Positions 3,012-57,442 of a DNA stretch of 64,000 nt are shown piece by piece. The DNA comes from Nereocystis luetkeana (taxonomy: Eukaryota > Sar > Phaeophyceae > Laminariales > Laminariaceae): the NCBI GenBank assembly GCA_031213475.1, contig JARUPZ010000002.1, positions 7,674,830 to 7,738,829 on the forward strand. Reading direction: 5' to 3'. The position numbers were made by a program, and so were the translations under genes. Position 1 is the stretch's first letter. The number at the start of each line of letters is the position of its first letter. Below the pieces are notes generated by a model. It was given only the letters and a program-made list of their open reading frames with translations. It made no database searches and had not been told where the DNA came from.

Positions 3012-3552
3012 ATATACGTATGACAGTCATCACCGGTGCGCAATGAGGAAGGTCTGGAGTTTGATTTGACGCCGCAGCTCTGTGTTCTGAAACTGGAGAA
3101 CGAGGGAAACGAGTGTTGCGCAAAAACACATCGTACCCCGTATGACAATTGACTGATGAGTATGCATCAGTAGCTTGTCCTCAGAGGTCTGGTCTTGGAC
3201 ATGGCAACCGGGCGATCTTACTGCAGAGCGACGTACTGCGTGGTCTGCAACAACGCAACACACCAAATGTTCTTGACTGAATACTGCTGTGTGTATGTAA
3301 GACTCGTGATACCACCCGGCAGGAACACCCTATCCTATCGGGAGACGAGAAAAAAGGCAACCCGCAACTCGCTTATTATTTGATCATTTGTACCAGAGGT
3401 ACACTGCTGTACCTGTCCTGCTGGTGTGCGTTACCAAAGTGTAATTTCAATTTTGAAATAAGACTTACCAGGTATATAAACAACAGCAGCAGCACGAGTT
3501 CATACACCAGGTAAGTGACTAAGTGACACAGGTACCAGGGACATGGGTGTAC

Positions 3553-3675
3553 TATTACGGGGGACCATAGTTAATAGGACCAAATATTGTTATTAATAGT
3601 AAAAATGGTCAAATATATACCGGTAGGTTTTCATGTATACCATACCAGGGTAGGTAACTATGGTCTCCCGTAATA
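3553..3675 (+). mobile_element. MITE-1 copy
   Basis: About 120 bp, with terminal inverted repeats TACGGGGGACCATAGTTA and CTATGGTCTCCCGTA and a TA at each edge. Too short to encode a protein, so it is non-autonomous; TA edges suggest Tc1/mariner-type mobilisation (inference). Confidence 0.8.
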
Positions 3676-3749
3676 CGAGTATACGAGTATTTTGTACCTT
3701 GGTAAGAAACTAAAAGAGCACGTCAGCTGTGAGTTCAACCGATCGGCAT

Positions 3750-4060
3750 TTGTATTAATACGAGTAGCAGCAGTCAACACAGCAGTAAATAGCAGTCAGT
3801 AGTATTAATAGTACAAGTAGCTGCAGCGACGGCAGCAGCAACATAAATCAGGAGCAGCAGCAGGAACAACGACAACCACAACAACGACGACGACAACAAC
3901 ACAACCAGCAGCAACATAAAACAGAGGCAGCCAGCACAGGCAGCAACAGCAGCAGCGGCAGCAGCAGCAGCAGCGGCAGCAACAGCGGCAGAAACAGCAA
4001 GCAGCAGAAGACAGAAGCAGCCGCACCGCAGCAACGAACGAAAGCTGAAGCATCAACACC
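3750..4060 (+). repeat. CAG/CAA-rich trinucleotide tract
   Basis: Long run of CAG, CAA and CGA triplets with interruptions. The open frames across it (poly-Ala, poly-Cys or poly-Val) are composition artefacts. Confidence 0.85.
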
Positions 4061-4878
4061 AGCACACAAACATCAGTACGTCGTATTAGTAGCTCCAACT
4101 CTCGCTCCCAATACTCACTTTCTGTGTTGCAGAAGTACGCGCATCTCGTCCGAGTTGACGACCATGCTGTCAGTGGGAAGGGGGGGAGCCTGCTGGGACT
4201 GCGAGGATGCCTCCGACCCCCGCAGCGGAGGACTGTCACGAAACGTTGTGCAGTTGGGGATACACCCGCGCAGTGCGGGCGACGGTCCTTTTTTATCCCC
4301 ACCTCCACTTCACCAGTTCGTCTACACAGTATGTTGTTCCCGTTATCACGTTATCGCGCCCGCGTGCGGTATCGGTACTGGTAGATGGTACAGATGTCTC
4401 AGATGCTCCGGATTGGGTTCTAAACCAGCAGCAGAAGCAGCACGTAGCAGGGTAGCTGTAGCAGGTACCAGGTAGCAAGGTACCTGGTACTTGGAGAAGG
4501 TACCGCAGCGAATTTATCTATTGCTTGAAACTTACTTTAGCTTTTCGACAGGGTAATAATCACCACCGACCCCCGACTCCTTTCTATGCTTGCCACCAAG
4601 GTGCGCCTCGTGTTACGCTATTTTACGAGGTACTAGTGCACTGCCGCACTGGTGGCTGCTCTACGTACTACTCTGTACGTGCTCTGTGAGTTGAATTTCT
4701 TGCGAAAAAGCACCGCACGGAGTTCAACAAATCTCAGAAGCGTTTTTATGTAGGGACGATGAAATCGTTGTTTCTGCACGCCCAGCCCCCCCCCGCCGCG
4801 CTACGCACTCTCATACATTGCTTGCCCCCCGTTGACCTCTACACGTCCAGTAGAGCCCCGATTCCTCGAGTGCTCATC

Positions 4879-10900: not shown

Positions 10901-13900
10901 GCAGTTTTGGCTATATACGGTACTGCTGGCCCTGGCTATGGTTGTGGTGAGGCACGGAATGTGTCCCGAGTGCGAAGGAAGAGAGGTGTACGACACGTCC
11001 GAAGCATGATCGGAGTATGTGATTACACCTTTTACACACCTTTTACATACGTACTCGTACAACAACACAATATGGCAAGACAAGACACGCCCGCCCCCCG
11101 GGGATGAATTTCAGATCCGTTTTTTTTTTTTTTTTTTTTCCCAAAACGAGGGTGGTGGGGTGCACACAAACGAAAACGGCGGGCTTTTGGGAAATATCTT
11201 CTCCATTGAATCTCTCGTCGAGATCTGTGTGCCCATAGACGCGTGCGCCGCTCGGCGTTTTTGTCACTCTCCCTGTTGTCGAGGATAAAACAGCTTCGAA
11301 ATCCCTGCGAGGGGGGGGGATGGGGGGTGTACTCGATAGGAGAGATGTACTCGATCTCATGCATGGTCGTAGTCGTATGACCATAGACCCTCGCATCCCT
11401 ACAATGACGGGACGGAGTATGACGACGGGTTTTCACCGACCCCAGGCAGACATTGCTTGCACCGAGCGCGAAGCGCCGTGAGGTGTCTGGCGAGCCGCAT
11501 GAAGGGTGAGCTGCATGCATCCTACTAGGAACCGCTTGTGGGGCGGACTTGCATGTGGATGACAGCTTCAATGAGTTCATTTAATTTCCGGTGTAGCCAC
11601 TTCCTGAGACAGCAATGGGAGTACTATGGAATTGCCTCTTCCTTGCCGTGAACACTACCAGGTACGTGATACGATCAATTCCCTTGTGCGGAGTAAAGGT
11701 TCTTTTCCTCGCACAAATGATCTAACTCGACGACCAGCTGTGGGCGACCGCCAATTGTTTTTTAGAAAAACGGTACCCTGGTTGTCTAGCTCACGTAGTG
11801 AGCGGCATGTTTTACAGTGTCGTTGCCCAGCCGACGCCAACCCAACCTATATATAATAGGGGGGGGGGTACTCATTTGTTGCCTGCCTTAGTCATTTGAC
11901 CATTGACCACGCATCCCTTTCGAGACGGAGCACTGTTCCTACTCCTAATAGAGACACCTCCAACAATTGGGCGCTCATCACGTTGTTTCCATATATTACA
12001 TAGAAACTTTTAGCTAGTCTTATCCCCTTCCGGTTTCGCCGCCTGTGGCTATCTTTTTCCTAGGATAGCGATCGTTTTCTCGCTGCTATCTAGTGTGTCA
12101 AACTCCTCCATGTCACATTCGTCTATTTCCCTCATCTCCTCTTCTAACACATCCCGTTCCTCCTTGTATATTTCACATTCTCCTACTATGTGAGTTCTAC
12201 TCTATTGCTTTGCCACACGAGCACATCTGTGCATCTATTTTCTCCTCCTCCCGGCTACTGGTATACCTCTTTATTCTTTCTGGCAGGTCCAGGTCACCTA
12301 CACGAAAGCGCAGCTTCAGCGTTTTCGCGAAGTCCATTGAGCCGTGCAGATACGTTTTCATTCCTGTTCCTTCCCTCAATCTCCCGTATATCTCTAGGTG
12401 TTTTTCCGATTCCACCTTGTTTCGCGTAGCGCTAGCCTTTCCCTTCTTTCTATCCTTTCTTCTACTTCTGCCTTGTACTCCCCAAACTTCCCGGCGAACA
12501 TCACCTCTTCTTGGTTTCCCCCTATATCCTTCCATACTTCCTCAACTACGCTATCCCACCTTATTCCAGCTCGCCCTTTTGTTACTTTCTCCCACATAGC
12601 TCTATCAACTATGGCCGGCAACCTCTTTTTGGCATGTTCCTTACTTTATATTGCCATTTCAACTTTCTCATATCCCTGTTTGTCTTGAGTGGGTGCATTC
12701 CCAGTTCTGCTCTTGATACTGTATTACTAGTGGTACTTGAGCATCTTAGGGTTTTTTTAGCTGCTGTCATCTGTACTGTTCCAACTGTTTTACGAGTTTC
12801 GCATTCCATTCCCATACTTCTCCTGCATATTCTAGCTTTGGTACTATCACATTCATCAGGATACATCTCTTAATCCTGGTGTCAAGGCGCGAGTCTGTTA
12901 GGATCGCATCCATCTTGCCTACGTGTGCTTTACCCTTTCCTATTACTTTTGCTATATGTGTATCCCAAGAGCAGTCTTTTGAGATATCTACGCCAAGGTA
13001 CGTATACTGGTCTACGATCGGCAATTCATCTTCTCCCCACTTCCAACTGAAATTTATCGGGTTCACCTTATCTTCGTTACAAACAACTACTGCGCATTTC
13101 TTGACGTTCGCCGTCACCCTCCATTTCCTAGTGTATTCTAGCGCGTTCTCTATTTGTTTCTGCAATCCTTCAGGTGTTTCTGATATCCCCACGAATTCAT
13201 CAGCAAACATCAATCCCGACACTGTATCTTCCCCTACCGTGACTCCCTGCCTTGCTGCTTCAACTGCTACTATCAGGTCGTTAATACATATCTTGAATAG
13301 GTTGGGTGACAGCGTACATCCGTGTGCAACTCCTTGTAAAATATCAACATACTTCGATATTTCCCCGTCTAGCATCACAGCACTTCTCGCACATTCCGTC
13401 ATATTTTTCATCTTTTTCCGCATCTTTCCTCTGATTCCTATTTCCCATAGTTTTTTCCACAATACATTTCTCCATACTGTGTCGTAGGCCTTCTCTACAT
13501 CTAGACAGAAACAGTACGTTGGTAGTCCCGCGTCTTTCCTACCTTGGATTATCTTACCTAGAGTGTACCCATGGTCTACGCAGCTACGGTTTGGCCTAAA
13601 CCCTGCTTGCCCTTCGCTTATGTTGTCTTCCTTCTCCATCATCGTTCCCATTCTATCGTTCAAAATCTGACAAAATGTTTTGCCTACAGTGCATAGTAGC
13701 GTTATCCCTCTATAGTTCCCCGGGTCAGCCTTATCTCCTTTCTTGAATAAGTTTACTACTACTCCTTCTCTCCACCTCCTGGGTGCGTACTCGTTTTTCC
13801 ATATCCAGTTATACAACATAACCAGCATGGTAAGCATTCCTTCTCCCTCGTACTTGATAAATTCAATTCACTATTTGGTCTGCCCCTGCTGTTTTTCTAT

Positions 13901-16900
13901 TCTTAAGTTTAGCTACACAGTTTTTTACCTCTTCCCTTGTGAACTCTCTCTGTATCCCTTCCGAACCACTGCCTTCCCTTTCTGATGCATCTACGTTCGC
14001 CTCTGCCCACGCGTTGATTTCCTTCTCGAATTCTGCGTCGAACGTTTCGTTGGCTGTGGGTGTTCCTAGCTTTCGGTAATGCTCAACTAGTACTTCCCTT
14101 TTCCCTTCGACCTACTAACCATTTTACCGTTCTGGGCTCTCAAGGTAGCTATTCCCGTGTCAGCCTCTCCTGCTTATTTGCCCAGTATCCCTTTTATCCC
14201 TACCCACATCTGCTTCATCCCGCCCTCAATGTCTTCATTCGTTTTATTTACTACGTCTTTCCATATCCCTTTCTTCTTCTTCTCTACCATCTCTTTTACT
14301 TTCTTTCTAGCTACCAGGTACCAGGGTATATCATATTCCTCCCATCCTGTCGTAGTTTTACTCGATGTATACCTTGCGTGTGCCTTTCTCCTTACTGTTA
14401 TAGCCTCTTTCACTTCTTCATCCCACCGTTTCACTGCTCTGTTGCATACTCTCAACTTTTCCCCTATTACTTTAGTTGCTGTGGTCTTGACCAAATTCTC
14501 CCATCCTTCTATTATCCTAGCTCCTGCATCATCCCTCTCTATATCGTTCCTTGTTGTACCTGTTCTTTCCAATAGCTCGGGAAATTGCTCTGCATTTTTG
14601 GCCATCTCTTTCTTGGAAGTCTTGCCGTTTCTCTTTTACTTCTAGTTTATCTATTCTCCTGTGTAATTTCCTACCTCGTCTTTGTTTGATAACTTTTGTC
14701 GACTGTCTGTCCACATTCGACAGTGATCCGTAGTTCCTACGTCCGTTGCGCATACTATATAATAGGGGGGGGGCGTATTCATTGGTTGCTTGCCTTAGTA
14801 ATTAGGCCATTGACCACGCATCCCTTTCGAGACGGAACACCGTCCCTGTTCCTAATAGAGACACCTCCAACATTTTGGCGCTCATTGCGTTGTTTCCGTA
14901 TATTACGTGATTTTGTTTTGCTAATTGATCTTACCCCCTTCCTGTTTGGCCGTCTGTGGCCACCATCGATCTCCTAGGGGGGGGGGGGGTGTTGTCATAA
15001 CATGCATGCATGCATACTAACAACCCCCCTCGGACGAATTTCGAAGACGCAGAGTTTCTCGACATAAACGAGGAAGGTGCGAAAATGCCAAGCGATGCGT
15101 CCACGGAAACATCTCGTCGAGGTGTATAATTCCAATACCACCGTTTTGGTTGTGTGTGTGAGTGCTCCCCTGGATTTGGAGAACTTCGGTACAGAAGTTT
15201 GCCCCACGAGGTGTGTTGTTACCACCAGACGTGTCGTATACGGCCCCAACACCTACCAGGTACAATGCACCCTGGCATACTCGTATGTGATACTCGTATA
15301 ACCCTTCCACTCGTATAGGAAAAAAAACAGCAACTATGAGCAGCCGACCTTTTTTTGTTGGCCAACGTTCCACCTCAATGCCGTGCCTTGTACGAGTACC
15401 TGATAGTTGCATATGAATATGTGTTTTTGCCGCTGCTTGCCGAGGTGTTTGCCTGCCCGCGGGTGTCATTTCATCTGAGTGGATTACGTAGGTATGGTCC
15501 CATCATGCAAATCATGTTGGCACTATCAATAATATACTGCTCGTATTATAGTATCGTATCATGGTACTACAGTAGTATACGGCTTGTTTGCATCTTTTGC
15601 ACGACGCCGGCACCCTCTCCCGGGGGGACGCAAAAATGAGAGGTCTACCGTCAGCCGCGACCGACTTCTCGCAACCACTTCTGAGTGTCGTAGACTATTA
15701 AATACCCTGTACCAGGTACAGTTTTTTTAGTGCCTGGTATTAAAATAGTATCTGGTGCTACGTTACGTACGTACGTGCAGCAGGTCACCTCGGCTAACAG
15801 CGCAACTGCAGAGGAGACTGACGGTACATGCTTCCGGTGTTCCAGGTATATATTATACCCTGGGAATATAATACAAGGCGCTTCGCTCCGCGGGCGGCCT
15901 ACGCCGCCCGCTACGCTCGCCCAGGAAGGAAAAAAGTACATCCAAATTATGCGAACCGAACAGAGGTCCACGATTGAGTTTAGTTTTTTCAAGGATCGTA
16001 ATTGCAAACCGGCGACTTGATAATGCCAAGAGTCCCGCCGCCATGCTTCAGGAAAAAACAGCTCCGACGTCAGCTTGGATGCCACATACGTATACGCTTC
16101 GCGTCGCGGATGTCGTACGTACGTACGCACGTACGTACATACACCCCAGGTAGGGTACTACTGTCTGTACTTATTTTCTTCTTTCGATATGCTCTAGGTC
16201 TGTACTGTATGTACGAAGAAAGCGCAAAGCACAGCACGGCACAGCAGCAAAAACAATGAAAATGAAACCGAAAACTCGGAAAGGAAAAAAAATCCCCGTC
16301 CCCTCTCGTGTAATATTTTTCTGCCTGATTGGAACACCTTACACCCGGTCGAAAAGAAGGAAAGAAACAAATCGCACATTAGCTTCTCTCTCACCCTCGT
16401 ACGCCGCCCGCCCCTCTCGCGACCACCTCGCTACCGATTCGGTCCGGGTAAAGCTTTTATCACTCTCTGCCACAATCAGCCCCGTCGCCCGCCCCGCGTG
16501 AAGCCCGGTGCTCACCGTGGCCGTCGTTCGCCAGCTCGATAACGTTGGTGTTCAAACTGCACACCTCCCTTTTTCACCTTCAGCGTGGTCGCAAAAATAA
16601 GCACCGCTTGAATATTATCTTTCCCTCCCGAACGACCTTTATAATCTCGTACATACTCTATCAGCAATCATAAATCGAAGCCAGACAAAGCCCATTCATG
16701 CATCCCTCGTGTCTCGAGGCGCACGCGACGCCTAGGCACGAAAGCGGCGACCGCGCTCCTTGCAACCCCCCCTCTACCCGCCAGCACCCGCTGGCACCCG
16801 CGACGGTGCCGGGTCCTCCCGCGATGCCGTGCTCGGAGAACACGCACGCACACGAAACGAAAGAAGAAAAAAGGAAGAAATGACCGAGAAAACAAAGAAC

Positions 16901-19900
16901 TGCGGGAAAGGTCCGGCAAGTAATGAAAGGAGGCGGTTTGGAAGTGGGAGCTCTGAGAGGCCAGGGATGCACCAACCGAGCACGCTCAGGGGTTGTGATC
17001 TAAGTATGTAGTTCTATAGTTCTATACTGCTGTGCCTCCCTCGGCTTTCCTTCTGGAGAGCGGCAACGGTGGTAATATTTTATGTTTGTTGATCTAATGT
17101 TGTTGTCGTTCGTGTCGCCGCTGTCGTCGGGATACGGTCGTAACGCCGCACGCGACAGGAGGCAAGCACACCGCCCTTCGTATTGGGCACCCTGACCCCG
17201 TCATGTCGTGCCGTCGTGCCTCCTGCATACCCCAGGTAGAATATGGATGTTTCCGCACCTGGTGTATGCTCGTATACGAAGTAGAGGTACATGGGAACGC
17301 TTGGTGTCGCAACTCGAGACCGCTCGTGCCTCGCACACTAGCAGCACAGGGCACAAACAAATAAACACGCCACGTCTGCACTCCTCATTCCGAGAATACG
17401 TACGTAACGTGCTGGCGCGACGCCACGGCTGTAAGATAGGCGGGTGTTTTTTTTTTTTGTTCGTTTAGGTCAAAACATGCCTCTTCTGTCCACACACCTG
17501 TTGTTTGCTGCTGACAACGTATGAAGGACTGTCCCCCGATCACGTGTTTTTTTGTTTTTTTTTTGCGTTCCGTGGTGTCTGTGCGTGCTGTCGCGGTCTC
17601 GTGCGACCGGACACACTCTCCAGCGATTGCTCGTGCGGTCTGCATTGCTGTCGTAGGCGTGTGCATGCATCTGTATGGTACTGCTTCTAATGTAGTATCG
17701 GGCGTACGCGTGATACAATGTACAAGATCAGTTGCGTATATTCTCGTTCCACGAAATATACAAATACCCGCTCTTTGTTTCAATTTTTTAATACTACTAT
17801 TAATAATAGTTTCTTGACCTTTACAAAATGTAAAAATAATAAACATATGTTCGTTACGGGAAAAAAAAAACACTCATCATATTTATACACGTGATACCGT
17901 ACTTCACATTATACGAAATATGCATCGCTGCTGTACTGCACAGCTTGTACTCAACTCGTAACGCGCAGAAAGCCATACCCAACTCCCGAGATACCCACCA
18001 ACAACATAGGCCTGCAGATTCTTTACGTATTTTTACCAAATTGTTACTGCAGCACTACACAGACAACAGCTGTACTCGTATAACCCGCAGGCAGCAAAAG
18101 TTAACTCCCAAGAGACCCCTAACCATATCAGCGAGTATATACTGGCTGTAGGTCTGCAGATGATGTACTAACTTTGACCCTCTCGTAACGGCCGATTTTT
18201 TCTTGCGACTAATTCCGAGTGTTCGAACAGTACTTTGTCCCCGAAAGACGTGGCGCAGTTGTCGAGAGGTTCCACCCGTGTGTTCCCCCCCCCGCTCGTG
18301 CGTACGTCGTACGAACGAACGAACCCGAGCAGCAGCTCTTGTGGATTCGTCAGGACATGTGTCACTTGCACTATCGCAGTCGATCAGCACCCATGCCGCC
18401 GTAAATACGAGCTGCAGTACTGTACGTAGTGCGTGCCAGGTGTATTATCGGCGTGAGGTGTGGCGGGTGTGAGGGGTGTGGGGGCATGGTGCGAGTAGGA
18501 GGATATATGGATGTATACGGCGGTGCATGCGTTCGTTCGTTCGTTCGTTCGTTTGTTCGTTTATTCGTTTGTTCGTTTGTGGCCGTGGCGGCGGCGGTTG
18601 CCTCGGTCAACGGCCTACTAATTGTACTTTGTCTAATCCGTCGTGCATGGCCTCTATAATTAATTGTCCTTAAAAACCGATTCGTACCTGGTATATTATA
18701 CGTGTTCTGGTTTTGTAGTGTGAAACATTTTTTTGTTACGGTTGTCCGTCGAAAAGGGCAATACGTTTAGTCAGTTGTTGAAAACCATCGCATCATGCAT
18801 CTTTGGTTGAAACGTTGCCCACGGTGTGGCGGCCACAGCGGTGGGTTTTGGAAGAAAATGTCGTTGAGAGCTTTCTTTAGACGAGTTCGGTCGGTTTTCG
18901 CGGCCTCTTGATTGTGAAGAATTCAAGCTTTTGAAAACCGGTCTATTTAGATTTGGGGGGGGGGGGGGGGGGGGGGGGGCGACGACTCGCATCCGTAAGG
19001 TACACCGTTACGTGATCAGTACGATAGCAGATGCAACAAGAAATATCAGTATACACTAAAAGCTATCAACCCCTTAGATTATCCCCTTGACCCTTTTAAG
19101 GCCGCAGTTCCGTTCAGGGGACAAGCTGCTTGAAAACTCGAGTGCTTTGCCCCCAAAACGAGACTGCAGCTCTAGAAGTTTTTTTTTTTAACCCGTGCGA
19201 TGTAAGGCCCATTTTCATCAGAGAGTCTTTTTTCCAGAATTCTTCACCTCTGGAAATAATCTCGAAAGGGATGCGTGGTCAATGGTCAAATCACTAAGGC
19301 GAGCAACGAATGAGTACGCCTTCCCCCCCCCCTTACAAGCGGTTCGTAGTAGGATGCAGCTTACCCTTCATGCGACTCGCCGGACACCTCACGGCGCTTC
19401 GCGCTTGGTGGAAGCAATGTCTGCCTGGTCGGTGAAAACCCGACATGCTCCGTCCCGGCATTGTAGGGATGCGAGGGTCTATGGTCATACGATTACGGCC
19501 ATGCATGATATCGAGTACATCTCTCCTATCGAGTACACCCCCCCCCCCCGCCCTGCTGTAACCTGGCGCTTTTTCACCCCAGGCACGCTACGAAATGGCT
19601 CGGTCTTCGGGCTCAAGTTTCATGTTGACGCAATACGGCGTCTGCTGCTTTAGGTACGACGACCAGGGCCGTCTCGAGGCCCGCCCGTTCAACTCCTTCA
19701 TCCTCCCCGGCACGAACTTCGGCAAGGACCCCGTCTACAGCTGCCAGCAGTCGTCCATGGCTTTCCTCAGGTATTGGGTACCGGTCTTGTGCAACAGCAG
19801 CAAAAACAGTAGTCTATTAATATGCGCGGTTAGTTAAGGCACATTTTTCGGGGTGGTTCTTCGTGTGGATGTTGGTGGTGGTGTTGGTGATGGTGTTGGT

Positions 19901-32105: not shown

Positions 32106-32522
32106 AAAATATAAATCGTCATTCGGTTTCGTTACGTCTTCCTTCTCGAAAATCCCATACGATTTTTGTTTCTTTCTTCTTTCCTCAGAGTTAATAGCTC
32201 GTCGCAGCAGTCGTCGTCGTTCCGCTCTACACTCTTCCCTACCTACTGCTGTAGTCTCTGCCGATCTCACTTCGCGAGCCCGTCGGGAATCGGTCTACAT
32301 TCGGTTCTATTATCTGTTTCGTTCCGTGGGAGGCAAAGCTGCGCAAAAAATACCAAAGCGCGTGGGAAAACGCCGCCAATGACAGAAAAACCATACCCGA
32401 AAGAAAATATGGCATGAACAATAACCACAATGTTTTGAGGTATGTCGTACCAGTACCTGGTACGTTGGTACTAGGATTCTCTCCCTTTCGAACGCTGTGT
32501 CGAGCAGCAGATCGAATATTCA

Positions 32523-43283: not shown

Positions 43284-46200
43284 GTGAGTCCGGTTCTCTG
43301 TACGCTCGTGCTGTTTGACGATTACGGTTCGATTGCCCAACATGTAGTATGAGCTGTTGACGTAATTAAACTACCTGGTACCAGGTACCTGGTATTGGTA
43401 CATATTTATCTGTTACAGCAGTCAGTAGTTATCATAGTCCCCGATTATCATTTTTCTGGTATTTTTTTTCGTGGCGCCTACTTTTACTGAGATCGTAACC
43501 CAGAATCTGGAACAGATTTGTTCCCCTTTGTGGCTGTGAAACCCACACAAGGCTCTGCCTTTTTTTTACGTTCCCAAACCAACCCTACTAAGACCTACCT
43601 GGTATGCCAATGGGACAGCGAAGTTTCAATAAAAAGTTTGAATTTCAAAGATACCCGCCAAAACTTTTCAGAACACGCTTCCTATGGGCCACGTTAAAAA
43701 AAAAAAAAGTTCCCAAGACCTATGCCAATGGTACAGCCAAGTTTCAATAAAAAGTTTGAATTTTCAAATATACCCGCCAAAAAAATTCAGAACACGCTTC
43801 CTATGGGCCACGTAAAAAAAAAAAAGTTTCTAACGTTTGGAAAAGCCCGGAAAAAGCAAATCTGGGGCCGATGTTGGCCCAACATCGGCTTGATAAAAAC
43901 TCAGGCCGATCTTCGGTTCGAAGCGGCGAGATTCCGAGTCCTCGACAGACATCGATCAACAAAACCAACGATTATTGCGTCATGAATTCTGAACGGAGTG
44001 CGCTCGTTAGGGGCTCCGACCCACCCTACAGTCACCGTCTTCACACCATGGCCGGTGTCACGTGGCGGGAGCTGACCAGGCGTATGATAAAAAAACATTT
44101 GGCCGCTGGTTTGCACAAAACAGAAGACAAAACTTCTCCATCCGTCTCGAATGGCAAAAAAATGACTTTTTTTCATGTTTGGGAGGATACCGTGGGACGC
44201 CGCCGGCAAGCTCTCGCCCCCTGGACCATGGATCCACCTGATATCCTCGAGGCCGTCATCTATATTCGTTGGCCTTGCCAGGTGCCGAGCGGGTTGGCCG
44301 TGGGCTGAGTCTATGTCGAGATCGGGCGTCGATCGTCGCACGAGCTGGTTTCTAAACCGTGTTGACAATTTGCAACCAGAAAAAAACAAATTGCGCCGCC
44401 TGCAGCCGTTGGGGGGGAAAAAAAATCAAAAATCAAACATTTTTATCTTTTTTTTCCCACAGCTAGCGGCGGTACGAGATTTGTTTTGGGCTGTTTTTTT
44501 AAAGCAAAAGTATTTGGAAAAAAACTTTTGAGCTTCGGGTTTCCATTGGCATAGGTCTAACAGGCAGAAAACAATTCGGCGCTATTATTAGTAGACACAT
44601 CCGTATTAATATCTGCCGTCACCGAGTGGTTGCCTCACTGATCACGTAGCACGGGTCGCTACAGCACTTGAAGAGGGTGTGTGGTGCACTGGGCAGGGCG
44701 TGGTCGGTGGCAAGTTTGAGAGCCATACAAGGTGGTCTGTGTCCGGAGTTTTCGCTTGGGGCGAGAAAGTTGGTCCATTTCTGTCTCGACGTTTCACCGG
44801 ACAGAGGTAATTTCCGTTCAGAAAAAGTGGATCCAAAAATGGATGATGCTCTCACGCCCCAAGCGAGACCTCCGGACACAGGCCACCAACGGCCCTCAAA
44901 CTTGGCAGCGAGAACGCTCAGATCAGAATAACGTACATTCTTGGGTTTTTTTAGAGCGATCCATGATCCGTGCTCTGTGAGGCGAGGACTCGCGGCGGCG
45001 GCGGTGGGTGCAGTGTGCGAAACGCACGTTTTTATTTCATGTGGGCAACGTCCAGAAATGGCCCGTGTTGTTTGTTGTTGTTCTCACATTAACTCACAAT
45101 ACAACGCAGTCCGTGGTCGCAGGACAGGCTCCAATAACTCTGGAGTGGAAGAATTACCTCGGTAGTAAAACAGAGGCAAAAACAAAAAACAAGCATACGC
45201 ACTCCACCACTGCGGACACCAGGGAAGCAAAACGGAACTATTAATAGCAGACAAACACCTAAAAAAGAAGAGGAAGCGAAGCAAAAACAAAACAAAACAA
45301 AACAAAAACAGAAGCAGATAGCAAAACGCAAAAAAAAAGGCAAAACGGACCATACTAACAAAGACATAAAGAGGTACAAACGGGAGTGAAAGAGAGATGA
45401 AAAAAAGAAGGGACAAAAAGCGATAATCACGGGCGGGGGGGAAAGAAAATACGAAAGGCAGGCACTGGAGGATACAGATACGGAAAGTTGCCCAGATGGC
45501 ACCATGCTAGTTACTTGGGTCCCAAAGAAGGGAGTGCACCATGACGATGATGGCCATAGCCAGGCTTCAGTCTGTTCGGCAGACCGCCTCCTATCTACAG
45601 ACTGCACTGCTCGTTGGCGGGTTTCTGCTCGATAAAAGAATGCCTGTTTTCGATCCTGTAATAGTCATCAGCCCCAGGCCAACTATTATCTAATACTGGG
45701 ATCGGGATCCAAAATCCAGAACAGGTCTTTCCTTCATCGTGCAGAAACCCGCGAGCATTTGCCGTCGGGAGTGATGGGTCTTTTCTGCGCGCTACCCACT
45801 GAAAGAAAAATCCGTTATTTGTCGCACACAGCACCCACCGCCGCCGCGAGGGGCGAGTCCTCGCCTCATAGAGCACGGATCACACTAAAAACCTCCATGA
45901 ATGTATGCACGTATGCTCCATTTCTCTGAGGGCCCTCGTTGCCGAGGTTTGAGGGCCGTACGCAGGTGACCTGTGTCTGGAGGTCTCACTTGGGGCGTTC
46001 TGAGAGGATGGCCCATTTCTGGATCAACCTTTTTTTTGTCGGAAATTTACCTCCTGTTAAAGTCCAGCAGAAAAATGAAGCAGAAATGGACCGGGCTTCA
46101 CGCCGCAAGCGAGAACTCCAGACACAGATCATCTACGGCCCCCAAAGTTGCCACCGACGACTTTCTGGTCCGTGTACCCAACCCTCTCTACAGTAAGTGC

Positions 46201-49200
46201 TGACCGACCCGTGCTCTGTGAGGCGGTTAGTGCTGTGTCGAAACACACGTGTTTTTTGCTGCCTCGGGCAGGTTTCGGAACGTTAAAAAAAGGGATTTTC
46301 GGAGGTCAGGTCAAACCTCACGGCTGACCCAGCCCGACCCGCGAATTTTTTTAGGTATGTTGACCTGACCCGACCCGACCCGCGAGATTTTGAAAGCCTC
46401 TTGATCCGACCCGACCCAACACGTGAGATTTCAAAACTTCCTGACCCGACCCGACCCGACCCGACCTGCCAACTTCTGATTGACCCATGAGACACGGGTT
46501 TCATGCGGGTCGGGTCACCTTGACCCGCGAGACCATTTATCTTGACCCGAAGGTTCGACCCGCGGATCTGGACAGTGGGTCGGCACTTCAAAAACAGTAC
46601 CAGGTATAATTTTTCACCTTAGTGCCCCACAGCGATACATGACTTGGCTGTAGTGGGTATGAATGGATGCAGGCATGCGTTTATAAATTTGGCAGTGTTT
46701 TAATGTTTGAATATAATACAAAAGCAGTATGATTGAGTATTGGTGCGAGAAGAGCGGGAAGTGATTGAAGTGTCGGATCCGCGAGCCGAATGCGCGGGTC
46801 CGACCCGCGGGTCAGTAGAAAACAACTCAAGGGTCATGCTGGCCTGACCGGCGAGTGACCCGCTTCTCGCGGGTCATGACCTGACCCGACCCGTGAGCTT
46901 TTCATCACCTCTTGACCCGACCCGACCCGACCCGCGAGATTTGAAAAACTCTTAACCCGACCTGACCCGACCCACGAGATTTGAAAACCTCTTGACCCGA
47001 CCCGACCCGTGAGGTTTTGAACACTTCCTGACCCGACCCGACCCGTGACATTTTGAACACCACGTGACCCGACCCGCGGGTCGGGTCATGACCCGCGAAA
47101 AACCCTGAAAAAAAAAGAAGCCAGAGCCTTGTGTGGGTTTTACAGCCACAAAGGGGATAAAACCTGTTCTGGATTCTCCATTCCGATCGCTTACGTATAC
47201 GTAGCCTGATTCTGATATCCGCGTTTTTTAGAGCGCAAACTGCATGCTCCAGAACAATGATCTACGGCTGTGATACCTGATGCTATCCAACAGCGCAACT
47301 ACAGTCAGTAGCTCCACCTACAAGGACGAGGTACTTCTGGGATACAATCACTGCAATGCAGCACCAGCGATATGCGTTGCCGTACTGCTTCATTATTTGG
47401 GTAGGATGGCCGTGGAGGCGGTTACCGTTTCGGGCAACAAGAAGTGTGAACGATGTGCGTGCAAGTTACAATTGAGAACGAAAACGAAGTACCGATTGAC
47501 CTGGCTATGCTTGAGAGACAATATACGCCAGAGAAAAGGACACACGCGACGGCTGCTACTGCGGCAGCAACGCCTCTGTCGCCGCCGCTGCTGCTGCTGT
47601 TGCTCTATGCTGTGGTCACGTAAAAGGCAGTCATGCGAATGACGTCACCGAGGCGCGTTGTGTAGTTTGTGCATGGAGCGTGCTGTGCGGTGCGAAATGT
47701 GTTCTGTTCGGCTCTCTCTCCCCAGCCAGCAGGCATGCACGCATCCGACACCTCGATTCGATACACGCTCGCAATCGCTCTCGTTGTGTGGCCAACTGGC
47801 TTTAGGTACCGCAGTGTCCCCACAAATCCGAGGGGCGTCCTTTTGCCGATTTGTGCGTTGCACATGCGTGCGCCTGCTGCAAAAAAACAGCAAAAAACAG
47901 CGAGGTAGCTAAATACAGCCATTGATAGGCTCGTTGTTGGTGGTGGCTGGTGGTGGCTGGTGGTGCCCCCCCCCTCCTTCCGAGCAGTTGGCGGTGTGCT
48001 CGTTCCTCTCTTCGCTTCTACAGTAGTCTCTCTAGACAGTTGCGTACGCTCTGTTTCATTTGATTATTGTTGTCTTCAGCTGCCATTTCACGTCCACTTG
48101 ACTACGTAGATACGTAACTTGCTTACATACACAGATCATGTATGCAGTGTTTATTCCAGTAATTGGATTAGACAGGCATTATAATACCGGATTGACAGAC
48201 ACGGGACTAATAGGACACCTCTTCATCGGACGAGACACGTTCGGACTTTCCGCCACAGGAGACCCCCCAGTATACTGGGGAACAGTTGTGTGATATTTCG
48301 GAGCTACTCGTAGGTAATGCAGTGTTCTGCATACGTTCAAACGGTACGATGATGAGCGCAGTGCGCCCATTCGCGTAGGGTGTGACAATATTTAACCGCG
48401 ATCCGAACGATCGTGACGTGCAGTCGACGCGTGCCGCTTTTCCCGGCCCTCTGGCGTGGAGGATGGGTGTGACAGCTCAACACTGCTACGCATTATGTAC
48501 TGTATGTACAGGCGTTGTGACATGTGCGTCATCGCATCTGGTGAGATAATGTATCTGCTTCTTTGTACGGAGCGTTATCACGCAACCAGCGCTCGCTTCA
48601 TAGTTCATCTCCAGTATATATATACATATTTTTTTTGCTCATCCCGTTCATTTTCTTCGCCCATCTTCTTCTCTCTCTCCTTCCAACTCGTAAATCAGAT
48701 CCGGGGTCACATAGCAGGCTCTTCTCCCCCCTTCCCGCTACGGTACGTGCCTTCATTTTTATCTCGAGAAAATTTCAGCCTTTTCTTCCCTCGTCGATTC
48801 GCATCGAATTGTGCCTACCCACGCTGCAAGGCGCTCTCAACAATTGAATCCTTTTATTTTTATTTTTATTTTTGCAAATAAAGTCAAAGTCCGACCCACC
48901 TGGGGCTCGAACCCAGGACTCAAACAAGTAGAATTCGAGGTTAGCCACTTGAACCACCGGGGCGACCGGCTGTATATACATACCTGGTTCCAGGTAATCT
49001 GCAGCAGGGGCTGCCGGACCCCGCAATTGGGAGCCACGTTATCTGACTTGCAAATCACGAATTCCAAGTGACGCTCCTTCTTGCTGCTGCTTTCACGGTA
49101 TTTACGACGTGCACATCAGGCGGAAATCGACCAAGCGGATGAGCCGGAGAAGGTCTTGGCGTTTCACCGCACCAATAGGCAGTTTGGCGACTTCATGGAT

Positions 49201-49275: not shown

Positions 49276-51047
49276 TCTTGGGGATGGAGTGCCGGTAGTT
49301 CACTACGTTCTTGAAGGTCTAGAGCCCTAAGCTAGCTCAGGTTGTTGATGCCATCGGGCGGCAGCGCCAGGAACAGTTCGCGCGATTCGAACTGCGACGT
49401 AAAAATAGAACGAATTTGTTGAACGCAACACAGGTTTATACATCCGATGCACGAGTGCTGCTGCTACTGCTGCTGCTTTTGTAGTATATGGACTCGTAAA
49501 GCAGTAATGAGTCATGTGCGGTACAACAGGCGTCTGCTTTTGTGCATCGTAGTGCAGGTAAATGTTGCCCTCGCACCCGCCTTATAGTGGGTACTACACG
49601 GTCTGACGCCATCAAAACCTCCACACGTTTGTTGGAATCTCCAAAGCGTCCAACAAGAGAAAGCTTGCATGGTCAAGGCCAGAGGTAGCTGTGGTGTTGG
49701 TTTCGTCTCTGACGATGAGTTTCTGGATCTTTGGCGACCCTTCTCAGGGCCTCGGGTCGCTATTAGTAGGGAAGTTTTGTAATTTTTTGGCGTAGATCAG
49801 TCCCCCCCTACTTCATTGAGCATGGATCATCGACTTACATGTTGACATATGCCTGCCTTGCGTAGGTGACAGTCTCGCACACTCGCAGTAAAATAGGTCA
49901 ATATCAGCCTTTTATCCGGTTATGCCTATACGAAGTATACAAGATACAGTTTTCAGGCCATTTTTGAGCGAGGTCATATGGAATCGCAAATCCACAGCGC
50001 ATTGGGTAAGTTCAACTAATATACACCCCGTAACCTGTTACGCCAGCACACCAGCCAGCAAACGACCGGTCGATGGCAACGCTAGAAGCTGCAGGTCTCT
50101 CGAACGGTACTTTCGAAACAAGCTTACGGATGTACGTACATGATAAGAGCAGGCGCTATGACGAAAGATAAACTCCCGATCACCACATGTCAAACTGGCG
50201 ATTTGATAATTTCTATCTACCGATGACCGCCGATTTCGGCTTGGCCCCTATACCACACACCATAAGTGGCGGTGCCCGCTTTCATGAGACTCAGTCGCTG
50301 TTACGAGTTTTCGGCAAAAACGTAACCGCGACCTCAGGCCGTTTTCAAACACGCCTGATTTTTTTTTTTCGCCGATTCTCCGTTTGCCCTTAAGCGGAGC
50401 ACCGACTTCGAGCACAGGTGCACAGTATCAATCTGCTTGATGCTTTGTACCCCCGCGGTCTCCCTCGTTACTACATGATCAACCAGAATCCGCGAGTCAT
50501 GAGGAGCCGGCAAACAATTGACAAAACATCCATTGCTTGTCCAACGCGTAATGGCAGTAAAACCTCCATATACACTGCCCGGATTGGGAGAAATTAGCCC
50601 CCTCGGAAACCAACCGGTACATTACATACGTATTTCACAATTTTATTAAAAAAACAAAGCGCCAAAGGAAAAACATACACGACCCGCGGCCTTAACCTCG
50701 AGGCATTACACAACATGACGCATGTGATTTGTAGAGCTAAACATACCAGGTACATGACAGCGCGAAAATGATGCCACTCCGGATGCGAATGGAAAAACAG
50801 CAGCACATTCACCTCTCGACATGCAGTCAACACAAAATCCGTGAGTGAACTTGTTGTAGCCATGCGTCGACCATGAAATCAATCCAATCCAGTTCAGGGT
50901 CTTGTCAACAGGAAAACATCGGCAAGGTTTTCCAACAACTCTCCTATGTTTTGAGGGCCCTCCGCACTCGTTGAAGCCTTCACGGAGTTATACCGCACCG
51001 ATTTGCAAGAGCACGCGGCCTCATCTCCCATGTTTCATATCTGCGTG
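49276..51047. other. Intergenic region between convergent ZNHIT3-like and methyltransferase genes
   Basis: No gene recognised. A minus-strand open segment at 50,863-50,594 has no known family. One TACCAGGTAC word at about 50,747. Confidence 0.5.
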
Positions 51048-51199: not shown

Positions 51200-52621
51200 C
51201 TGCGCGCAATGCGTAGAACAAGGCATGCACGCGCGCACACGGTGCCGGTGTCGATCGGGTTCAAAATCCGCGTTGCTTACAAACCAGAGCACCTACCAAG
51301 TCTTCAAGCTCTGCTACTGGACTGGTAGCGCGGTCGTCCTTTTTTTGTGTGCGTGTTGCTCGGCGGCAACACCACGAGCGCAGCACACCACCACACACCT
51401 GCAACGCGACACATCTCTTATGCAGGTGTATGACCGAGTATCAAGCACGCTCACTTTTTTTACTCACCATACGTTGCGACCCTAGCTCCCGTGCGAAGTA
51501 GAGAAACCATAGCTTCCTTCACTGCCGCCATTCCCGACGGGACGAGGTAGATAAACACTACGGTGGCCTCACTTGCATCTATATCCAGTACATTGCCGTG
51601 AATAATCCTAATCTACGCGCCTCCTCGCCCATTTTTCCCAACGCGAGTTGGGCACGAGAAACACATAAAACGCGCAGCGAGGGCAGGGGCGACGATAGTG
51701 GGGTTCCCGGGAAATTCAGAGTGGGCAGTGGACGCCGTCTGCATCCTTTACCTGCACCGTTTTGAACTGGCACCCTTCACGACGATTCATACACATAGAC
51801 GACGTTTCCAAGATACGGCGCAGATAGAATGCAGAGTAATACACTCTGTTTCCCGGATTTTATGGGCGGACAGGCTACTACAGGGCGACCACGGCTTCGC
51901 CAAGCTTCTTCTTTATCCGCCTTTCTCCCAAGCCGCCTCCAGCCCGATAGTGCATGAGGCAGTTTACGAGGACATTCCCCCTATCGTGCGAGGTAGAGCG
52001 CAACCGAAAGACGATCGAGCGTTGGCTGGCACTCGCTGTACATTTATTGGGCTGCCTACGAACGCGTTTGACGCTGTTATCATTTTCACCCGTCGCAAAA
52101 CTCGACCCCGCCCGGCAGCAAGAGCCAGATCAATATATATCAGGAATACAAGGCGGTTCGCTCCGCGGGCGGAATTCCGCCGCCCGCTACGCTCGCTCAC
52201 AATAAAAAACAGGTGAGATAGTTGGATTTGTCTGCTACCAGGTAGTCATTAGTCGGGCGGGGAAGCAAGTCAACTGACTGGCTGCCTCTGTGAACAAAAA
52301 ACACACCTCGGGTCACAAACGCGCCACTACTTGGGCCGCCGGCAGTAGGAATTTAGCTTGCACGCTCTCTTCGATCTTCTGCGGTAATCCTCAGAAGTAC
52401 TGTTGTCGCTGTGGCCGCGCGGGGTAAAACTCGCAGCCCGACAGGCGCCAAGTCATGTCGATATTGGCTACATATAGCCGCTACAGAAATACGACATGGC
52501 GTACTGAAGAAGCCACAGCAGCCGCCGTTGGGGGTAAACATCTTACCTTGAGGTCGAGCCCGGCATCTGCTATTCGTTTCTGCGCCCGATCCGCAAAGCG
52601 CTTGTCGTACTCCACCCCGAC
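51048..52621 (-). CDS. Class I SAM-dependent methyltransferase, 3' three exons (5' part not found)
   Basis: Three exons join in frame. VGVEYDKRFADRAQKR is the end of the second strand of a Rossmann-fold methyltransferase, with the acidic residue that binds the SAM ribose. IIHGNVLDIDASEATVVFIY is motif II/III, and LVPSGM with GARVATYVFSLPGLTPAK are the following strands, then NIYLYTASS. The order and motifs fit a class I SAM methyltransferase; the substrate cannot be told. The glycine-rich motif I (GxGxG) should lie upstream on the minus strand, above 52,621, but I found no convincing exon between there and 57.4 kb. It may be a very short exon, lie beyond the window, or have been lost. The gene converges on the ZNHIT3-like gene. 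Confidence 0.78.
51468..51612 (-). CDS. Methyltransferase exon, core strands
   Basis: The acceptor GCGTAG gives IRIIHGNVLDIDASEATVVF, then IYLVPSGMAAVKEAMVSLL and RTGARVATY. Donor CGTATG|GTGAGT, phase 1. Confidence 0.85.
52142..52200 (+). repeat. R1.1 terminal hairpin alone
   Basis: AATACAAGGCGGTTCGCTCC, then GCGGGCGGAATTCCGCCGCC and CGCTACGCTCGCT: the R1.1 left end with the loop changed but the hairpin still palindromic. None of the 1.1-kb body follows. Confidence 0.65.
52547..52621 (-). CDS. Methyltransferase exon with SAM-ribose acidic motif
   Basis: 25 codons, phase 0: VGVEYDKRFADRAQKRIAD, then AGLDLK. Acceptor GCGCCAG, donor CTCAAG|GTAAGA. Confidence 0.8.
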
Positions 52622-53595: not shown

Positions 53596-53734
53596 ATTTA
53601 GTCCCACCCCCGCCTCCGGTACGGGTAAAATACCTGATTGGAGCGTACCAGGTACGTGCATAATTTGTTCCTGCCTCCGCGTGGAGTAAGAGCGGAAAAG
53701 CATTTTACGACCCCAGGCTGAGTTTCGCCCCATG

Positions 53735-53955
53735 CACACTGGGCGGGGGCGGGGGTAAATATCATCATGCACTCTACTACAGTAGTGGGCGGGTGCAGGG
53801 GCGGGGGTAAGTAATCCTCACACTCTATTCCATCTCTACAGCTGTAGCACTAGTAGGGGCGGGTGGAGGTGGATAATCCACGTGTGCTCCATCCATTTCT
53901 AAGGTAGTAGATGGGGGCGGGGGTAAATATTCCTCATGCACTCCATTCAGAGCTG
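53735..53955 (-). repeat. 54-bp minisatellite, inverted arm
   Basis: The same unit on the minus strand: NGVHEEYLPPPPPSTTLEMD and the next units. Between the two arms lie about 140 bases with worn units. Confidence 0.7.
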
Positions 53956-54199
53956 CTCGTACTTTAGGTGGGAAATCTTTCACGCGCGCTTCAATAAGCT
54001 CTGCGGTAGGCGGGGGCGGGCACTGGCATGGTTGGTTGGCATGGTTGCCCCCTCCGCCTATCGTACCAGCAAATCGACGACACCCAGCATGCTAATATGC
54101 TGCACAGACCGGTGCTAAGGAAGAAGCAACTTCTCGAGCTTGGTGCACTTAGGCTGATATGATCGAGAGCGCCAATCTAGAGATTTTTCAGGTTATTGT

Positions 54200-54835
54200 T
54201 CGGCGATGGTCGTGGTGCTGCAATGGCACTTGAGGCAAAGTACCGGCTTGATGGTGAGTTGAGGATGCAAGAGCTGCACGATCAGCTCACCGAACTACGC
54301 TGTTCCACCGGAGCGTGTGCAGTACCAACATGCTGGGTGGACGAACACTGCTTCATCACCGCGGGGCGGGCCGGTTCTCACCCAGCCGTACTTTGCCTCA
54401 AGTGCGGCTTGATGGTGATAACCAGCACGCTCCCTGGTGATGCAACAGTGTTCGTCCACCCAGCCTGCAAGCAGCTGTGCACGCTCCGGTTGGGACAGTG
54501 GATTTTCGCGAGCTGATCGCGTCGCTTGCACCCTCAACCCATCATTAAGCCGGCATTTTGCCTCGAGTGCCATCACAGCACCACGAACGGCTAGATGGTG
54601 AGTCGAGGACGCAAGAGCTGCACGATCAGCTCGCCGAACTCCGCTGTTCCTACCAGAGAGTGTGCAGCATCAGCATGCTGGGTGTTTCAGAAGGACTAGT
54701 TTCTCATGCTCGGTGCACCCAGATTGATGCGATGGTTGTGGTGCTGTGATGGCACTTAAGGATAAGTACCGGCTTGATGGTGAGTCGAAGATGCAGCAGC
54801 TGCACGGGCAGGTTGCCGAATTAACGTACCAGGTA
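54200..54835. repeat. Amplified coiled-coil-like module in both orientations
   Basis: A unit encoding MALEAKYRLDGELRMQELHD and CWVDEHCFIT occurs forward at 54,214-54,360, 54,585-54,690 and 54,745-54,825, and inverted at about 54,375-54,576. All are broken or partial, with no splice context recognised. Confidence 0.65.
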
Positions 54836-57442
54836 CCAAAGCATCGTAGATGTTTTTTTCTCGTTCGGGCATCTGTTTAGTTGTGTTTGATACCTGGTAT
54901 GCTTTTTTACAACAGTACGGAAAGACATCCAAGGAACGAAACAAGGATTGGGTGACCGTCGGCGGTGATATGCGGTGTGAGCTGTTTCCGTGTCAGAGTA
55001 CTTGCTGCATGCGGAAAAGGGGCACGAGCGATAGAGAAAGGGTGTCATTGAAATCGTATCTCTCGAAACCCCTGCAAATTACCACTTGAAAATCAGGAGC
55101 GCTGACCCTGGCACTTGAAGTGTACATGCAGATCGCAGATCCAAGCATTGGAAGAATTCGGCCCGGAAGTTCGATCTCAGGCTGTTTCCTATGCGGTTCG
55201 ATTTCGAGCTTGAGACGTGTGTTTTTCGATCCCAAAAATGAAAGCATCTGCTTATGCAGTCCGAATATACAAAATCTAACCGCATTTTTTCAATTCGAGA
55301 ATCCGATGGCCCAGGTCGTCCGAATTCGACCCAATTTCCGACGGCTAAGGTCATCATATTTTCAAATCGAAAAATGGCATGGTCTTTAAGTTCAAGATGT
55401 TACCCACGACATGTCACAGCAAGCAGTAGCAGAACGATCGATGTGTCCGATCGTGACAAAGCTGCGCGCCCGACGCGCGGTCGGCGGGCGGCGCGTCTCT
55501 CCGTGGCCAGACTACGGTCGGCTGGCGCGGGCTTGGGCCTAGGGACCAAGAAAAGAACACTCGGCGCGCACCTCTCCGAGGATACGTACTCGTAGACTAC
55601 AGCAGCATCAGTTAGTCACATTGTCAAATACAAAATACCAAGACAGGTTGACTATAGCGCGCTCGGCACGTCTCTTCTCCGCCAGACCAAAGGCAGTCAG
55701 CGTTTGCTCGCACGCTTGGGTCCTACGCGCAGTGCAGCGCACCCAACGTGTTTTTTCGCGGCGCCAGACCGTAACAGCAGCAGTTGCTCTCGGTGTTTGC
55801 TCGAATCTCTGCACGCACAACAAAATCAGATTTTTCCGCATAGCAAGCCTGTTTCGATTTGCGAAGTTTACAGCTAAAAATGCGATCGGGCAAAATCCGA
55901 AGCTCAAAATCTGAATCGTATAGGAAACAGCCTCACAGTTGACGACGGATATTAACGAAGCACACATACTGCGTACGTAGCAAGGGCGACAACATGCGAG
56001 GTATATATACGTACGTAGTATATACCTGAAGAGTGCAGTACTGGAGGACTAGAGTATTGCGAAATTGCAGTTGTGCGTTCCACCTGCTACTCGTATATCT
56101 AGTCTAGAGAGTGTCTCGCGGGGAGAGGAGATGGTATGGTATAGCATGCAGGTGGCGCTCTAGTCCGTGGTCACAAGACAGGTTCCGCTAATAGAGTGTT
56201 CTGAGTACAGCACTGTAGCGGTAAGATATTCAGTGGAAAATATAGCGACAAGTACCGTGGTGAGGAGGGTGGATCAGTGCTTGCTGCCTACCAGGTATGT
56301 GACACCGGATTCGAGTTAAGAAAGGGAGGAAGCTTGGAGAAACGGGGCAAAGGGCAGAGATAAGAAAGGCCCCCGTTTTTACGAAGGACACGTTTGAACC
56401 GAATCGATTCATTTTTTATGAATCGAAATGGATTCGATTCGATTTGGCGTAAAATTACGAATTTGGGTCCCCTGTCGGGAAACCACATACCTGGTGTTTT
56501 TGTCGTTTGTTTTATGGGGTCGGAAACACGCAGCATCTCACACAACGCTTGGCTCCCAACCACGGGGGAAAGTAGATGAGAGCGACAGGGCGCATCATCG
56601 CGTGCGCGCCGCCGCCGGCCTATGTCGTACTTGGGCGGTGCAGGCTGGCAAGCTATCACTTTCAGCTTCGCTTGGGTGGGCGGAGGAAGCTCTGAAACGC
56701 CACGCACGGGACAACGACGGCGATGCAGCTATCGATGTCTTGAGCTACAGTACTTTCCGTGTGTTGGGTCGATCGCTTGGTTGCGTGGCGCTTGGTCGAT
56801 CTAGCTGATGGAAAAAACGGGCTTGCGACCGGAATGTTTTTTCGGAGGAGCCACCGCCGGGGCACTCTGTGCTATGGTCTGTAGCTGTGAGTGCGGCTGT
56901 GGCCCCGATCGCCATTCGTTGAGGTTTGAGATTTAACGCCTCTGTGTTGGTCGCCGATAATGCCCAAACAGCGACCGATTGCCTCGGGGGCGTTGGCCCA
57001 GTGGGAACATGCTCTATGGTAGTTGGATGGACTCTTAGCGCCTGTATTAACGAGCAACTTTTTTAAAATTATATTTTGACAGAAAAAAGCGAATTTGAAT
57101 TGATTTAGTTTCGCGAAAAATATGACTTTGGGTCTTATCCAGAAAATACAGGTTTCCGTAGGAAACTGGCGTTTGTGAGGCGGTTTGAGTTCGAGTAATG
57201 GAATAGTTTGAACTAGGTCGACGTACAAGTTCGACGCACGCGTCCAGTCTTCAGTTAGCGTAAGACTGCGTAGGGAACGAGCTACGAGCACGTCGGGACG
57301 GACGAGGGATAAAACTGGCTCTTCAGTCGCAGCTGGTCCGGGTATCGCGGTATCGCAACCTTCGGGTGGTAGAAGGCAGCGAGACTATTTTGATCGATCG
57401 ACTTTCTTCGACAGCAATACTTCGCGCCGCAGCGCCTCTACC

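Follow-up and report, generated by a model that had tools for sequence, protein, structure and literature searches.

The nine-base word TACCAGGTA as a probable excision footprint of a TA-inserting transposon in the Nereocystis luetkeana genome

Introduction

The excision footprint of the Sleeping Beauty transposon has the form TAC(A/T)GTA. Here we describe a nine-base word, TACCAGGTA, that is scattered through a stretch of 64,000 nucleotides from Nereocystis luetkeana (GenBank assembly GCA_031213475.1, contig JARUPZ010000002.1, positions 7,674,830 to 7,738,829 of the forward strand; the whole stretch is called the window below) and that very probably, with a likelihood that we put at roughly 90%, is the excision footprint of a cut-and-paste transposon inserting at TA. 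The word resembles the Sleeping Beauty/Tc1 footprint in having a TA on both sides, an A/T ambiguity at its centre and, on this reading, terminal nucleotides of an element between the TAs and an origin in end joining. It differs in that five nucleotides (CCWGG), not three, separate the TAs, in that more than 10^5 copies are present in one genome, and in that the source element was not seen.

In PMC2874221, the Sleeping Beauty footprint is printed as TAG(T/A)CTA. Elements of the Tc1/mariner group are described as being cut inside their ends, leaving element-derived tails that end joining converts into a TA-flanked footprint (PMC2874221, PMC4561436). The usual Tc1/mariner footprint measures 2–4 bp (PMC7913693) and that of the pogo-type element Passer 0–4 bp (PMC9976928), while putative Stowaway footprints combine 2–4 bp beside one TA with 1–2 bp beside the other and reach about six (PMC1925063). 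The Stowaway/mariner elements of grasses share with the present case the TA target, terminal fragments at empty sites and insertion beside an old footprint, and the upper end of their footprint lengths is similar to the scar described here (PMC1925063, PMC4561436). Five different putative Stowaway footprints are described at one intron site (PMC1925063), whereas here one form is dominant genome-wide. Ectocarpus, perhaps from a related host group, carries many TA-type DNA transposons and miniature inverted-repeat transposable elements (MITEs), including 17 Mariner-Tc1 families with almost 12,000 copies; the main text of that account contains neither the word footprint nor the word excision (PMC12477816). 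Literature searches, judged by their listings, returned no account of a comparable scar word spread through a whole genome, though one may still exist. The exact word turns up once in each of eight papers, presumably within primers. Excision footprints as such are textbook material; the number and uniformity of those described here, and their missing source, are unusual.

Results

Abundance of the word

An initial annotation of the window had pointed to a nine-base word scattered by the dozen through non-coding DNA, and it had proposed counting 9-mers against a shuffled dinucleotide background. Searching both strands, we found 36 exact copies of TACCAGGTA in the window, of which 35 lie within 3,460–56,500 and one at 1,639; 100 dinucleotide shuffles gave a mean of 0.44 and a maximum of 3. 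The ten example positions of the annotation are all real to within 6 bp, as is the doubled word at 22,030, and a second doubled word is part of a triplet at 43,372–43,394. Across the 465,085,209 bases of the genome searched (1,987 contigs), the word occurs 182,395 times (91,240 and 91,155 by strand), or once per 2.5 kb, compared to 1,744 occurrences (861 and 883) of the reversed word used as control. It is also the top-scoring 9-mer in a 241,901-base sample made up of the window and 18 further stretches, with 92 occurrences against 1.3 expected from dinucleotides and 2.1 from a third-order model. In this sample tandem arrays were masked, words of period 1–3 were left out, and one plastid-like stretch was dropped (contig C300, 29% GC, with plastid-type genes: PsaD as a strong match to 9ygv_D, and chlB and rpoB from a reading of the frames).

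The counts are therefore far from the near-expectation values that would have spoken against the annotation. Its second possible objection, that all copies belong to one longer repeat, does not hold either, since the flanks of the 36 window copies are all different. The word had also been said to be absent from a retroelement at 57.4–64 kb and, on that ground, to be a property of host DNA. None of the 36 copies indeed lies there, but this region holds only 186 of the 3,074 TA dinucleotides of the window, so that about 2.2 copies are expected and the absence carries no significance. The claim about host DNA thus loses its argument, and the copies very probably trace instead to excised mobile DNA, as set out below.

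Copies with paralogs appear as 7-bp insertions at TA

The flanks of every sampled copy were searched against the sample for paralogous repeats. Where such paralogs are present, they usually show a bare TA in place of the TACCAGGTA or TACCTGGTA of the copy, which corresponds to a 7-bp insertion of the form TA to TA-CC(A/T)GG-TA. Clean empty sites carrying TA only were found for two window copies, 11656..11664 (+ strand; five paralog alignments and a clean 7-bp insertion) and 23863..23871 (− strand; within a copy of the TTAC MITE, with TA only in 7 alignments to unselected paralogs and 10 in all), and for copies in three other loci (L013 at 5,925, L017 at 5,126 and L021 at 2,269).

When the word was collapsed to TA, an ungapped paralog was obtained for 8 of 95 isolated copies (54 alignments; 309,900 bases, leaving out 20 loci fetched for a scar variant), whereas removal of any other length gave paralogs at just 0–2 of these 95 sites; a partner that keeps the word was found at 4. 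With the 20 selected loci added, the figures are 10 of 100 sites and 155 alignments, compared to 0–3 sites for other lengths and 8 with the word kept. Measured against the empty site, the word adds bases at a TA and has a TA on either side. The inserted unit consists of five nucleotides plus TA with no internal sequence, and is not a MITE, which would have terminal inverted repeats around an interior.

These insertions bear on the idea of a palindrome kept by the host. HIP1, the highly iterated palindrome in cyanobacteria, is likewise a short near-palindrome in massive excess, and such a motif, an uptake sequence or a protein-binding site would arise by point mutation together with selection or biased conversion. 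The extreme excess of a near-palindrome on both strands would suit this account, and so would the scarcity of copies in open reading frames (ORFs) of at least 200 amino acids, where we found 4 copies, compared to expectations of 16.2 from length and 9.8 from TA content. This deficit was, however, not taken as evidence of selection, being small and based on ORFs that are not gene models, and frameshifting insertions would produce it too. Unlike HIP1-type palindromes, the copies with paralogs are TA-duplicating insertions with no sign of an origin by substitution; several unrelated TA-x-TA words, moreover, behave alike, each with its own flank preference. We therefore regard a host-kept motif as very improbable. 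The annotation had also suggested a site bound by a protein and a proto-splice site that spreads; both can be set aside on the same grounds, as neither would appear as a TA-duplicating 7-bp insertion against paralogs, although the splice-like CAG|GTA within the word may be relevant in transcripts.

Target preference of the flanks

For each of 101 sites the two flanks were rejoined at one TA, the halves were pooled, and base frequencies were compared to those around 11,140 background TAs. Rejoined flanks of TACCAGGTA show A/T at a frequency of.83 at −7, A at.50 at −6 and A at.44 at −3, while T at −1 is reduced to.04 from.19 in background TAs. Each flank taken singly shows the mirrored pattern (A reaches.53 at −6, for instance, and T.47 at +6), and the preference around TA is thus palindromic. 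The flanks of three other words discussed below, TACTCGTA, TATTAATA and TACAGTA, show preferences different from those of TACCAGGTA. This is expected if each word derives from a different TA-inserting transposase, and unexpected for a motif made by mutation.

Doublets and triplets

Pairs of TACCAGGTA spaced by 7 bp and sharing a TA occur 15,917 times genome-wide, and 8.7% of copies begin such a doublet. The centres are the same in 9,539 pairs (60%) and opposite in 6,378 (40%). Independent re-insertion into the TA of a scar would give equal centre classes, whereas tandem duplication would give only one kind; on the re-insertion model, at least about 80% of doublets come from separate events. 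In the window, a doublet on the + strand is formed by 22030..22038 and 22037..22045, which have a TA in common, and the triplet has alternating centres (43372..43380 on −, 43379..43387 on + and 43386..43394 on −).

Slippage or tandem duplication spreading a short palindrome locally, also proposed in the annotation, would account for the existence of so many tandem 7-bp doublets and for their 60% share of equal centres. As the main cause it fails on the 40% that are opposite-centred, which do not form head-to-tail arrays of one orientation, and on the small share of copies that begin a doublet. It also leaves unexplained isolated TA insertions with a preference reaching out to 7 bp, and the one-sided extra G described in the next section. 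Taken together, we consider slippage hardly credible as the origin of the word.

Minor scars suggest the end of the source element

CCAGG and CCTGG are one word read on opposite strands, so the main scar is silent on the end of the element, and other scar lengths are informative. Genome-wide, TACCAGGGTA occurs 11,422 times (control 409) compared to 1,578 for TACCTGGGTA (control 362), a ratio of about 7:1. Within 299,898 bases, we counted 55 CCA against 19 CCT scars (29 and 34 expected), 34 CCAG against 19 CCTG (8.7 expected each) and 7 CCAGGG against 1 CCTGGG. Slippage of G would treat both forms alike, and the one-sided extra G therefore speaks against it. From these sequences we infer a source element that would start 5'-CCAGGG at TA and would mostly be cut five bases in.

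Two 6-nt variant scars TACCAGGGTA lie in the window on the + strand, at 3643..3652 (inside a copy of the TTAC MITE, by alignment) and at 14319..14328, the latter fused to the TACCAGGTA scar at 14312..14320 (+ strand) with which it has a TA in common. At one hot spot within the MITE, the base after CCWGG is not T in 194 places, and CCAGGG accounts for 85 of the 100 listed (counted by eye); some of these variant scars may have been inherited by amplification of the MITE. Separately, TACCAGGGTA recurs seven times at 528-bp steps at C1 1305185–1308362, where a tandem repeat has the scar inside.

Other scar classes and candidate elements

The word TATTAATA occurs 93,112 times genome-wide compared to 10,689 for its control. 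Two clean cases, and one more inside a triplet array, show it as 6 bp inserted at TA. Its copy at 3591..3598 (+ strand) of the window has 11 paralog alignments without the 6 bp. An abundant MITE that begins TTACGGGGG beside TA shares with it a preference for TAC|TA: T at −3, A at −2 and C at −1 have frequencies of.43,.54 and.61 in the flanks of TATTAATA, and of.59,.60 and.67 in the outer flanks of the MITE (58 distinct flanks under a loose end pattern, with some of the sequence from loci chosen at that MITE). In Tc1 the scar retains two bases of either element end, and TATTAATA would fit a scar of this kind. A second class of TA scar matches an element that is still present.

TACAGTA is enriched about fourfold (77 against 18.8 in the masked sample). 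Pogo-type elements lie between TAs with ends CAGTGGGG (both ends in L020, one in L022) or with a 22-bp inverted repeat beginning CAGTACCGG (perfect in L032, with one mismatch in L054), and TACAGTA would plausibly, judged by its letters, fit a scar of such elements starting CAG. When inserted bases are compared to known element ends, there is accordingly a match for the TATTAATA class and a plausible one for TACAGTA, while the CCAGGG end is one that we infer. The pogo-type element at L032 1609–3586 (C7, about 10.117 Mb) has perfect 22-bp inverted repeats CAGTACCGGCCCGCTAGTAAGA and is inserted into a TACCAGGTA scar at its right-hand TA; L030, L033, L054 and L055 contain relatives.

The pair TACTCGTA/TACGAGTA, enriched about 12-fold (52 against 4.4 in the masked sample) and with its own flank preference, is probably a further scar class; it has 20 sites in the window, for example 1879–1886, 15278–15298 and 40332–40339. 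TACAGCAGTA/TACTGCTGTA occurs 32 times against 0.5 expected with tandem arrays unmasked (in the window at 1820, 22959, 32244, 41116 and 53469); for TACAGCTGTA and TACTGCAGTA the counts are low, at 3 and 2. The word TACAGCAGTA/TACTGCTGTA is perhaps a 6-nt scar in which A:A mismatches were repaired as one tract, or it may belong in part to CAG arrays.

Search for the source element

We checked 88 TACCWGG ends without a following TA (41 and 47; 242 kb) for paired ends and found no source element among them. A comparison of the sequence beyond the TACCWGG end, with one mismatch allowed, yielded only a TACAAGG repeat as shared sequence. Inverted pairs of near-CCAGGG ends numbered 5, compared to 3, 4, 0 and 1 in four permuted controls, and again gave no source element. 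Two of these five pairs match at 24 of 24 positions and were rejected, neither of them starting with CCAGGG: the pair at 2750–6826 of the window also shares its outer flank and is thus part of a longer inverted repeat, and the surroundings of the pair at L031 244–3100 consist largely of long inverted duplications.

Among transposase domains, PF03184 (DDE_1, pogo-type) gave 28 matches in the genome, and the surroundings of 14 were inspected (L020–L025; L026, which L027 and L028 duplicate; L029–L033, with two matches in L031; L054 and L055), in which no transposase could be tied to CCAGGG ends. The unplaced contigs C809 and C872 (L026–L028) are 100% identical over 6 kb to C2 at about 7.92 Mb, and represent duplicate assembly in redundant contigs and not new insertions. 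By the rule of three, applied to 299,898 bases, up to about 4,650 CCAGGG-ended copies could be present genome-wide, provided that their ends are recognisable and bearing in mind that the sequence includes loci chosen for transposases; we estimate that scars outnumber recognisable elements by more than about 39:1.

The absence of a source element from all sequence read would favour the view that the word moves on its own as a minimal unit, or that it arises by another chemistry such as the capture of short oligonucleotides where a domesticated transposase has broken the DNA at TA, and the great uniformity of the inserted piece points the same way. In contrast, the series CCAG, CCAGG and CCAGGG resembles variable cutting of one longer end, and another scar word of this genome matches a real MITE. 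A self-mobile word, or such capture, seems to us very unlikely. The tiny mobile palindrome of the initial annotation is accordingly retained as to its origin in mobile DNA, and replaced by the scar of an excised element as to its nature.

Further copies and features of the window

All copies of TACCAGGTA were placed by exact word match on both strands, and calling them scars is our interpretation. In addition to the copies given above and below, those on the + strand are at 1639..1647, 3466..3474, 4466..4474, 15254..15262, 15710..15718, 26009..26017, 31135..31143, 34375..34383, 34698..34706, 38652..38660, 40439..40447, 41769..41777, 46598..46606, 50744..50752, 52236..52244, 53646..53654, 54827..54835 and 56289..56297, and those on the − strand are at 4481..4489, 18685..18693, 21386..21394, 21846..21854, 22281..22289, 23091..23099, 32454..32462, 41144..41152 and 54891..54899.

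Pfam matches in the window are an RVT_1 reverse transcriptase (12767–13867), a CAF1 ribonuclease domain (26185–27036) and a HIT zinc finger (42585–43352). The abundant MITE whose 58 distinct outer flanks are described above has TTACGGGGGACCATAG ends between TAs; it is sometimes self-nested, and its TAs are repeatedly scarred; ends lie at 41–51, 3553, 10598, 24508, 24575, 24673, 24734 and 30996, and at many other loci. Repeats of about 1 kb at 2029–3017, 6557–7557 and 15871–16881, two of them inverted, end in TA-CAAGGCGCTTCGCTCCGCGGGCG (near 3012, 6559 and 15872) with differing outer flanks, and are likely a further TA-type element.

Discussion

We propose the following course of events. A Tc1/mariner/pogo-like element would insert at TA and duplicate it. 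On excision, its transposase would cut inside the element ends, so that about five nucleotides, CCAGG, would stay behind as a single-stranded tail at either side of the break. Two such tails could anneal with each other, since every position but the central A:A mismatch would pair (C-G, C-G, A:A, G-C, G-C); end joining would then seal them, and mismatch repair to A or T would give TA-CC(A/T)GG-TA. A cut one base deeper would leave CCAGGG, and most doublets and triplets spaced by 7 bp would arise when an element entered the TA of an older scar and was excised in its turn. Self-annealing CCAGG tails would explain at once why the scar is near-palindromic, constant in length and free at its centre.

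Several results weigh against this reading. No element with TA-CCAGGG ends was seen in the roughly 300–320 kb read, the pogo-type elements with visible ends start CAG, and genome searches with the Pfam profiles PF13358 and PF01359 gave nothing, with the limits that PF01359 lacked a positive control and that such profile searches are weak for intron-split genes. Five nucleotides are long for a mariner footprint, though within the Stowaway range (PMC7913693, PMC1925063). The empty-site test is silent for 87 of the 95 isolated sites, which have no TA-only paralog to compare, and its cases are not all independent, as 4 of the 8 positive sites (6 of 10 with the selected loci) are in copies of one MITE family. 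Some sites are less clean: L001 5,266, within a tandem repeat of 135 bp, aligns poorly, L002 6,350 shows a net difference of 5 bp, L018 7,380 one of 9 bp, and the window copy at 43596..43604 (− strand), with a single paralog partner, one of 3 bp and no clean TA empty site. The lean towards equal centres in doublets indicates that some tandem duplication probably took place. As to the CCAGGG end, CCTG scars also exceed expectation (19 against 8.7), TACCAGTA is genome-wide just modestly above its control (46,688 against 29,541), and all 20 of the non-T hot-spot cases that were fetched enter the MITE within a few bases and are variant scars, not elements.

Finally, 182,395 is not a count of events. 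It overstates independent events, because some scars were copied within amplified repeats and because some contigs duplicate chromosomes.

The decay of the word gives some indication of age. On one strand, words with one mismatch number 280,656 − 91,240 − 91,155 = 98,261, compared to 35,099 − 861 − 883 = 33,355 for the control, an excess of about 65,000, where exact copies number about 90,400. The resulting ratio near 0.7, based on one control, fits either steady production over about 0.24 substitutions per site or a single burst at about 8% divergence; scar production is thus long-lasting or of middling age and not a very old remnant. If scars are neutral and their production steady, it would suffice, with an assumed mutation rate, that each generation fixes on the order of 0.01 scars per genome. 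At that rate, tens of elements hopping ordinarily over millions of generations would be enough.

A more specific possibility, which we put forward only tentatively and think somewhat less probable than its opposite, is that a single TA-inserting 'ghost' lineage, now very low in copy number or lost, made on the order of 10^5 jumps and was nearly always excised through self-annealing 5-nt tails. Ciliates remove MITEs by host-driven excision, and in a bolder form of the same idea excision here might by analogy have been driven by the host, with insertions of the family removed almost without exception.

Footprints are usually studied per locus or per assay, whereas here one chemically uniform scar appears to be present in the order of 10^5 copies. 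Each landing of TACCAGGTA brings a splice-like CAG|GTA site and a 7-bp frameshift, and scar words of this kind, unless recognised, can mislead motif finders, k-mer surveys and predictions of introns or regulatory motifs. As an archive, the scars would allow the frequency of jumps, natural target choice, break repair and the period of activity to be measured without the element, and the G-extended minority would spell one further base of the missing end. Should the ghost lineage have existed, the scars would be the main trace of the element and a datable archive of single transposition events.

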